Of a stretch of 64,000 nt of DNA, positions 6,270 to 8,596 are shown piece after piece. A program made the position numbers and the translations under genes. The notes beneath the pieces were generated by a model. The model worked only from the letters and a program-made list of their open reading frames with translations. It had not been told where the DNA came from and made no database searches. Within the stretch, counting starts at the first letter, position 1. Every line of letters starts with the position of its first letter. The stretch comes from Acuticoccus sediminis (GTDB lineage Bacteria; Pseudomonadota; Alphaproteobacteria; Rhizobiales; Amorphaceae): positions 124,001-188,000 of the forward strand of contig NZ_QHHQ01000003.1 in the NCBI RefSeq assembly GCF_003258595.1, written 5' to 3'.

Positions 6270-6421
6270 CGATCACTCCTCGCCGTCATGTCAGCTATAT
6301 CCTGCAGCTATCATGGCCGCCGTGGACGCTCCAGACCAGCACATTCCCACGGTCCGTGATTTGTGGCGCCGCCCGCTGCGGCGGATCGGCGCCGGAGCGA
6401 GGGTGCATCATTTTTCATCTG

Positions 6422-6436
6422 GAACAAAAAGAGAAC
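6422..6436 (+). promoter_or_regulatory. LexA (SOS) box, GAAC-N7-GAAC
   Basis: GAAC (6422-6425), seven bases (AAAAAGA), GAAC (6433-6436). Read on the other strand this is GTTC-N7-GTTC, the direct-repeat LexA operator known from Rhizobiales and Rhodobacter, with the typical A/T-rich centre. It ends 17 bases before the ATG at 6454 and is 153 bases from the divergent gene starting at 6269, so it should control the small plus-strand gene. The match is exact; binding is inferred. Confidence 0.85.
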
Positions 6437-6453
6437 ATGTGCTTTCTGAGGAC

Positions 6454-6678
6454 ATGTCTCGTCGCTCGCTCCCCTATGTCGACCGTCAGTCCGTCGTCGC
6501 CCGGCTCGGCCAGTGCCGGCAGGCGATGATCGAGTTGCGTGCCGGTTCGCCGCCGCGTTCGCTGGCCCGCGCCTCGGCGGACCAGATGATCTCCAATATC
6601 GACGAGCTCGTCTGGATCCTGACCGGCGAGCGGGACCTCTTCGTCACGAAGGGCCATGGCACCAACCTTGGCCGCTAG
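6454..6678 (+). CDS. Small unknown protein, predicted SOS-regulated
   Basis: A 74-aa protein that I do not recognise. It is basic at the N-terminus (SRRSLPYVDRQ), has a helical middle (RQAMIELRA) and a mixed C-terminal half (MISNIDELVWILTGERDLF); no membrane segment or metal motif is visible. The frame is open upstream to an ATG at 6313, but a LexA box at 6422-6436 would then lie inside the gene, so a start after the box fits better. ATG 6454 has GAGGA only one base away; an in-frame GTG at 6439 is the other candidate. Known LexA-controlled small proteins in this class include division inhibitors such as SidA, but there is no sequence evidence for that role here. Confidence 0.6.
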   Translation: MSRRSLPYVDRQSVVARLGQCRQAMIELRAGSPPRSLARASADQMISNIDELVWILTGERDLFVTKGHGTNLGR

Positions 6679-6790
6679 CGCCGGGTGGCGGGCTAGCGGC
6701 CCGGGAATTGCCGCGGCCGCCGCAGGCGCCCGGCTTGCGGCCGGGACCGCGCGCCGCCGTCGACCGATCCCATGCGGGCACAACGCTCCG

Positions 6791-8596
6791 CTACTCGGCG
6801 GCCTCCTGCCCGGAGGGATCGCCGTCGGACATGCGTCGCCTCATGTCGGGACCGTCCTCGCGGCGGGCGTCGTCGCGGCGTTCGGGGGTCGTCGTCGGCT
6901 CGCCGCTCTCGGTGACGCCGCCGTCGTAGGTGTTCTGCGTCCCGCCGTTGTCGTTGATGGTGTTGGCGACATAGGCGAGGCGGGTGCGCGGCAAGGCGCC
7001 GGGCTCGGGCATATCGCGCAGGTAGGCCAGCAGCCGCTCGCGCATGCGGCAGTGGAGGTCCCACGCCGCGGTCGGGTTGTCGGCGATGCAGTAGAAGCGA
7101 ACCGACATCGCGATCTCGTCGTGGTCGATCACCTGAACCTTCGGGTCCTCGCCCTCGGACCAGTCGGGGTCGTCGCCGGCCATCTTCGCGAACACCTGGC
7201 GCAGGTTGTCGACGTCGGTCCGGTGGTCGAGCTTGAGGAGGATGGGCAGGATCATCTTCGGCTCCTCCATCGTCCAGTTCTCGAAAGGGTTGGAGACGAA
7301 GTGCTTCACGGGGACGATGAACCGCTTCAGGTCCCAGGTCCGCAGGCGCACGTAGGTGTAGTTGATCTGCTCCACATAGGCCCAGTGGTCGTCGTAGTAG
7401 ACCGCGTCGCCGATGCGGATCGGCTTGGCGAGCGCGAGCTGCAGCGAGGCAAAGATGTTGCCCAGCACCGTCTGCGCGGCAAGGCCGAAGATCGCGGTCG
7501 CGACACCGGCGGAGACCAGCAGCGACAGCCCGAACGAGGAGAATACCCGCAGTGACGAGAAGGCGACGGCGAGCCCCACCACGACGACGAACATCACGCC
7601 GATGCGCTTGGCGGCGGAAAGGTTCGTGTACCAGCGCCGCGCGCTGGTGTTCTCCGGGTTGTCGATGGTGGAGAGATAGCGGTTGGAGGTGAAGTCGATG
7701 ACCGTGTCGAGCGTGCGCGACACGCCGAAGACGATCGCCGCGATGATGACGATCCAGAACAGGACCGAGAGCGTCGTGTCCGTAGCGGACGAGAATTCGA
7801 AGATCGAGGAGACGGTGACCTGCAGGACGATGCCGATGGCGAGCAGCGCCGTCGGCAGCCGTCCCCGGCAGATCGCGGCGCGCACGCCGGCGAACGGGAC
7901 ACGGTTCGACACGAGGGTCATGATCCGCCAGATGGCCCAGGCGACGAGGAACGTGAACGCGGCGATGACCGGGATCGTGATCAGCTCCCACCACAGGATG
8001 CCCCAGATGGTCTCCTGCCGCAGCACATCGGGGAGGGCCTTCTCGAAGGCGGTCGGGCCGTAGCGGGCGTAGAGCTCGGGGATGTGCTCGACCGTCTGGC
8101 GCGAGAACACCCAGACCGGCTCGGCCCCGGCGGCGTTGACGCGGTTGAGGCGGACGGTGACCGGCCACTCCGGCAGGTCGAGGACGCCGATCTGGATGCT
8201 GCGGCGGGCGACGCCCACCATCGGCTCGCGCTCGGACCCCGTCGTGTCCATGCCGTCCGGCCGGTCCGGCAGGGCGTTGAAGTCTATGGGGATCTTTCGC
8301 TTCAGGACGAACGACAGCTCTTCCGCGAGGCGAGGGCCGAGCCGATGCTGCTCCCCCTCGGGCACGAACTCGAGGTCGAGGACGTGGGCCGCGGTGACGT
8401 AGTCCGTCCGGTCGGTGGCGCTGACGAACGCCTCCATCGCCGAGCGCGGCGTGCTGAGGTCGACGTTGCGCGGCGCGGGATCGAGGCCGGCGTTCAGGGT
8501 CTCGACCTCGAAGGTGGGTTCGCCCTCGTCCTGCGCCGCAGCGCCTCCGGTGCAGGTGACAGCGACCAGTATGGCGGCCAGGATCCGTCGCAACAT
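6791..8596 (-). CDS. MscS-family mechanosensitive channel with large periplasmic domain
   Basis: A 601-aa inner-membrane protein. It has a signal peptide (cleavage after GGAAA, about residue 21), a periplasmic domain of about 175 residues, then membrane segments near residues 199-226, 249-267, 275-293 and 333-350 and a glycine/alanine-rich pore helix at 356-386 (SAGVATAIFGLAAQTVLGN). The MscS beta domain follows (KPIRIGDAVYY, FIVPVKHFVSNPFENWT), with a cytoplasmic C-terminal domain and an acidic, disordered tail. Such channels release solutes on membrane tension. The ATG at 8596 has GAGGG seven bases upstream; longer starts at 8623 and 8713 lack this. It is monocistronic. Confidence 0.92.
   Translation of the reverse strand: MLRRILAAILVAVTCTGGAAAQDEGEPTFEVETLNAGLDPAPRNVDLSTPRSAMEAFVSATDRTDYVTAAHVLDLEFVPEGEQHRLGPRLAEELSFVLKRKIPIDFNALPDRPDGMDTTGSEREPMVGVARRSIQIGVLDLPEWPVTVRLNRVNAAGAEPVWVFSRQTVEHIPELYARYGPTAFEKALPDVLRQETIWGILWWELITIPVIAAFTFLVAWAIWRIMTLVSNRVPFAGVRAAICRGRLPTALLAIGIVLQVTVSSIFEFSSATDTTLSVLFWIVIIAAIVFGVSRTLDTVIDFTSNRYLSTIDNPENTSARRWYTNLSAAKRIGVMFVVVVGLAVAFSSLRVFSSFGLSLLVSAGVATAIFGLAAQTVLGNIFASLQLALAKPIRIGDAVYYDDHWAYVEQINYTYVRLRTWDLKRFIVPVKHFVSNPFENWTMEEPKMILPILLKLDHRTDVDNLRQVFAKMAGDDPDWSEGEDPKVQVIDHDEIAMSVRFYCIADNPTAAWDLHCRMRERLLAYLRDMPEPGALPRTRLAYVANTINDNGGTQNTYDGGVTESGEPTTTPERRDDARREDGPDMRRRMSDGDPSGQEAAE

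Follow-up and report, generated by a model that had tools for sequence, protein, structure and literature searches.

A small gene behind a predicted LexA box in Acuticoccus sediminis and its relatives in Alphaproteobacteria

The window, which is the whole stretch of 64,000 nucleotides analysed here from contig NZ_QHHQ01000003.1 of Acuticoccus sediminis, contains a gene for a protein of 74 amino acids that, judging from the DNA, is very probably part of the bacterial DNA-damage emergency response. This placement in the SOS response rests on the finding that the gene and most of its relatives stand behind the same switch, a box of the form GAAC-N7-GAAC, which is the alphaproteobacterial SOS operator. 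The explanation that we favor, with about even confidence, is that of a LexA-repressed single-gene unit whose product serves as an accessory factor where single-stranded DNA carries lesions. Small LexA-controlled proteins are already known as a kind; what appears new is this family, with its unusual link to SRAP (YedK/HMCES) genes.

The gene and the box ahead of it

The positions of the gene and of the box are given in Table 1.

Table 1. Coordinates of the two features in the window.
Feature	Position	Strand	Basis
Gene of a 74-aa protein, unnamed family with predicted SOS link	6454..6678 (stop included; 6678 is the final base of the stop codon)	+	Purifying selection; homologues in the genus
Predicted LexA box, GAAC-N7-GAAC, GAACAAAAAGAGAAC	6422..6436	+	Motif match; footprint in six Acuticoccus genomes

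The open reading frame looks like a real coding gene. A homologue is present in six of eight Acuticoccus genomes, counting its own, and Acuticoccus yangtzensis is the named species with a family member. Comparison of these six genomes points to purifying selection, with dN/dS values of about 0.1 to 0.43 (pairwise dS 0.50 to 1.80, dN 0.09 to 0.40). No homologue was found in the congeners G003 (97% complete) and G005 (94% complete). The preliminary description of this DNA had left the start in doubt between 6454 and 6439, the latter an in-frame GTG; the ATG at 6437 belongs to another frame. Translation most likely starts at 6454, which is preferred over the GTG because the column of 6454 is an ATG in all six Acuticoccus homologues, and because the G007 frame closes only 9 nt before this ATG, leaving no alternative start. 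In the window the gene has no partner on its own strand: its neighbours, a DHDPS-family gene on one side and a mechanosensitive-channel gene on the other, are read from the opposite strand, and the same two flanks are recognisable by eye at the copy in G004.

An exact GAAC-N7-GAAC directly ahead of a short gene had been reported in the preliminary description. It was confirmed here as the sole exact copy in the window, and 17 nt separate it from the ATG. Shuffling of the window gives an expectation of 1.31 bare motifs per 64 kb, with at least one present in 75 of 100 shuffled sequences. Since the bare motif is thus no rarer than chance in 64 kb, the case for the box rests on comparison with relatives. 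A narrower form with an AT spacer, GAACAWNWNNNGAAC, picked only after the box had been seen, occurred in none of 100 window shuffles. When the six Acuticoccus genomes were aligned on the box, 9 of its 15 columns were invariant, including seven of the eight core positions, compared with one of the 60 upstream columns and four of the 40 downstream columns. The box of G001 has one core mismatch. A sigma-70-like promoter was not found at 6270-6800.

The genome of A. sediminis encodes LexA, as indicated by a LexA_DNA_bind match at G000:C1:1587894-1588082, and GAACACACGACGAAC, which is not of the AT-spacer form, lies about 70 nt upstream of this match. The bare GAAC-N7-GAAC occurs 125 times in the genome vs. 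49 for a reversed control, and GAACAWNWNNNGAAC has seven sites in the 7.76 Mb vs. none for the reversed control pattern. One of the seven is the box of the 74-aa gene. Another precedes a gene which, from its position and from recall, we take to be imuA-like (it has no Pfam match), followed by an IMS-family (ImuB-like) gene, and another precedes an SRAP gene. The earlier reading of the box as an SOS-type operator is supported by operators of the same type at the genome's own lexA, ImuB-like and SRAP genes.

Of the remaining AT-spacer boxes in this genome, three (L104, L170 and L174) have no clear SOS gene downstream. One (L172, G000:C10:97369) lies ahead of a radical-SAM gene that also matches a helix-hairpin-helix model weakly and whose product is possibly a repair enzyme. 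The SRAP site among the seven is at L173 (around G000:C13:21369-22483), where the LexA-type box of the AT-spacer form separates a pair of divergent SRAP matches, of which the second is partial.

Relatives of the gene and their boxes

Homologues were gathered by protein similarity alone, ignoring the box. Within the order, at least 16 of 297 genomes match profile A1 and at least 24 of 294 match profile A2 at E 0.001 or better, some of these matches being spurious. In the class, with the same threshold and again with some spurious matches, at least 8 of 385 genomes match A2 and at least 9 of 385 match A6. In the phylum at least 9 of 299 genomes match at E 0.001 or better, all within the window's own order. 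Because the whole-genome search scored a limited number of candidates in each genome, it may have missed some relatives. The gene is therefore dispensable and patchy, since two of the eight genus genomes are without it and matches were obtained in 8 or 9 of the 385 class genomes. Eleven loci came from GTDB contigs, and three queries of plasmid records gave 4, 10 and 18. Viral contigs yielded 12 loci, all through the profile of the plasmid clade; the window-clade profile found no relative among the viral contigs scanned, and two family members queried against phage GenBank records had no match.

Several candidates were set aside. L008 has two internal stops and L068 matches 38 model positions in a frame of 215 aa, both without a box; L213-L215 are chance matches to part of a large protein of a phage, and the piece at L216 measures 35 aa. 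The resulting set of 51 loci includes near-duplicates (several from Roseibium, Methylocystis and Phaeobacter) and doubtful members such as G109. The label Roseibium-type used below derives from GTDB records and the label Bradyrhizobium-type from plasmid matches.

The family is alphaproteobacterial and fast-evolving, with relatives in Roseibium, on Phaeobacter and Ruegeria plasmids, in prophages and in Methylocystis. The Roseibium-type chromosomal copies have a neighbourhood common to one another. A second clade is mobile, with members on Ruegeria and Phaeobacter plasmids and several copies in G285. The homology of the window clade and this plasmid/prophage clade was evident in a profile-profile comparison (probability 97.85, E 6.6e-13). 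The tree of the family excludes DG1229, AO1B and the G521 fragment, and its deep forks are poorly supported.

In 44 of the 51 loci the 150 bp ahead of the ATG taken as start contain an exact box, and 39 of these 44 boxes are 29 to 61 bp from it. In the background, 21 of 4234 windows of 160 bp from the same loci contain an exact box. Restoring L008 and L068 changes the count to 44 of 53. Because the set contains near-duplicates, clusters were also counted: at 50% identity the 51 loci form 19, and 17 of these have at least one box. Among the viral loci the box is present in 7 of 12. The seven loci without an exact box are G001, G285e, G285d, G104b, the G521 fragment, G043 and G269; G001 and G285e have a near-box with one mismatch close upstream, and in G043 and G269 an exact box stands ahead of an upstream small gene instead. 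A profile search of relatives, proposed with the preliminary description as a check on whether box and gene travel together, thus gave an affirmative answer.

LexA control of the gene is highly probable on these comparisons. We infer that LexA binds the box and that the product is DNA-damage inducible. A box that matches by chance, with the gene outside LexA control, is very improbable: the bare motif is expected about 1.3 times in a stretch of this length, and in three related Methylobacterium plasmid copies the box spacers are GC-rich, so that those boxes could be due to chance, but the frequency of the box in the family over the background, its spread across the clusters and the footprint in the six Acuticoccus genomes all argue against it.

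Some relatives depart from the usual arrangement. In G285 (Roseibium-type; L110-L113) there are five members over several contigs, and an exact box is absent from two of the five. In Methylocystis plasmids and a similar genome (L105, L131, L146 and L147) a single frame of about 200 codons encodes the family domain followed by a cupin domain at the C-terminus. A weakly related gene, with up to six matches per genome, is found in a Bradyrhizobium-type genus (L128, L129, L192-L203, L210 and L211). This group is joined weakly to the family (profile-profile 80.8, E 1.3e-5), and its membership is tentative. The gene is often behind another small gene of about 76 aa (the one scanned had no Pfam match), and on plasmid L210 the two annotated small genes overlap by 7 nt. 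Within 300 nt, none of 17 multi-copy loci of this type has a box, some of these loci, e.g. L208, being probably spurious. When the region upstream of the preceding small gene was considered in 12 loci (10 of the 17 together with L128 and L129), five had an exact box and three a box with one mismatch. Also among the 12, L199 has a GC-rich exact match and no preceding small gene. Of two plasmid copies, one has a box ahead of the preceding small gene.

The protein and its SRAP neighbours

The product had earlier been said to match no familiar small SOS protein, and no known family matches it: scans of Pfam, NCBIfam, PHROGs and PADLOC gave no fitting family, the matches having E 0.012 or worse and each occurring in at most four members. 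The best E in a PDB sequence search was 0.64. In the open-licence literature, judged by titles and abstract openings, no publication was recognised as being on the family. In alignment A6 (33 members) an arginine, R22, and an aspartate, D50, are invariant, and I49 and G58 are nearly so. The sequence pattern suggests a helical hairpin, with the arginine in helix one and the aspartate in helix two. The N-terminus looks basic and the tail rich in aromatic residues and histidine, and the window protein as a whole has a net charge of +4. Its best 19-residue Kyte-Doolittle mean is 0.59, which makes a membrane helix unlikely, and a mean of 1.6 is reached by only one of the 51 members. The product is most likely soluble. 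The idea of a clamp-binding motif in the tail was rejected on inspection by eye.

An SRAP gene lies 5-6 nt downstream of the family gene, behind one box, in one Ruegeria and two Phaeobacter plasmids, these being the three records opened of ten. The two genes form an apparent operon there. Among 34 fetched genomic regions SRAP is near the family gene in three and was not found nearby in the other 31. In G247 it is divergent, with the box between the two genes. In G238 it is just upstream on the same strand, and the family gene keeps its own box. In G285 it is on the opposite strand at a distance of about 1.2 kb, the SRAP match being in two pieces. Three of 36 loci have SRAP within 1.2 kb vs. 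0.04 expected, at a distance chosen after the fact. SRAP is also close by in three of the 12 viral loci, one of which, L159, has the family gene just as a fragment. In the tree the family gene of G247 falls outside the plasmid/prophage clade, as far as the poorly supported deep forks allow.

The presence of SRAP in a genome says little by itself, since at least one SRAP gene is found in 29 of 29 family-positive genomes and in four of the 14 control genomes. No SRAP gene adjoins the window copy, so that any partnership there would act in trans. SRAP has been described as an SOS-linked, DNA-associated protein, with genes beside umuDC, imuAB-dnaE2, dinB and Ku/ligase genes (PMC3765255). Because SRAP is itself SOS-linked and is carried on mobile elements, the adjacency could be that of shared cargo. 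LexA-type control is common to the SRAP modules and to the present family, and the genes are adjacent in some family relatives; in contrast, no small partner of this kind is mentioned in the passages of PMC3765255 on SRAP SOS modules.

Possible roles in the response to DNA damage

In the favored explanation, LexA would occupy 6422-6436, close before the start codon, and so repress a single-gene unit. DNA damage would lead to RecA filaments and these to self-cleavage of LexA. With repression lifted, the soluble basic 74-aa protein would be made and would serve as an accessory factor at lesion-bearing single-stranded DNA, on or beside SRAP or the RecA/translesion machinery. An accessory role in DNA-damage tolerance is rather probable, and a role as polymerase modifier is possible. 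Direct work with SRAP is a tentative suggestion. Still more doubtful is the specific proposal that the family is a dedicated SOS-induced partner of SRAP, a small helical protein of several alphaproteobacterial lineages and of their prophages and plasmids. It would direct or regulate the covalent shielding of abasic sites in single-stranded DNA, and the degree to which the alphaproteobacterial damage response is mutagenic would depend on it.

The best rival, itself rather unlikely, is a functional analogue of DinI, which would bind RecA filaments and tune the processing of LexA and of mutagenic factors, with the mobile copies serving their elements. By analogy, the similar size, the LexA box, the plasmid and prophage copies and the several copies in one genome all suit such a role. 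The DinI-like proteins of enterobacteria and phages are likewise small and LexA-controlled with copies on prophages, and DinI homologues sit on Gifsy prophages (PMC3121763). The present family differs from them in bacterial class and in having SRAP beside some relatives, and no DinI model was among the Pfam matches up to E 1 in 22 members scanned. The pattern of the sequence is also different, resembling a helical hairpin, and the charge of the window protein is basic overall.

Less likely than a DinI-like role are a division inhibitor and an antirepressor. That the protein, once induced by SOS, inhibits division or slows growth in some other way is unlikely, although this is a frequent role of small SOS proteins. 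The Caulobacter proteins SidA and DidA are membrane proteins, and a membrane helix of their type is unlikely at the hydropathy values given above. The division blocker raised as a possibility in the preliminary description is therefore not favored in its membrane form. Nor does SRAP adjacency point to division control. In Caulobacter, small division inhibitors are reported to act after DNA damage (PMC4211646).

An origin as a LexA-controlled prophage antirepressor, which would inactivate a phage repressor after damage and would leave the chromosomal copies as remnants or decoys, is a slightly poorer prospect again. Three viral contigs have integrase genes near a member and one has a portal-protein gene there, and small LexA-controlled antirepressors are known from prophages, examples being GfoA and GftA of Gifsy prophages and Tum of phage 186 (PMC3121763). 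Unlike these, the window and Roseibium-type copies are chromosomal and stand alone. The window gene is alone between housekeeping-type genes whose counterparts are recognisable by eye in G004, the Roseibium-type copies have their common chromosomal neighbourhood, and an unsystematic look noticed no repressor partner.

To return to the favored reading, an accessory factor at damaged single-stranded DNA would give the SOS response of Alphaproteobacteria a further protein, conserved and as yet unnamed, with SRAP as a concrete candidate partner. If the functional link with SRAP is true, the family would represent a regulator of abasic-site crosslinking in bacteria. The copies on plasmids and in prophages suggest that mobile elements may gain by altering the damage response of their hosts.
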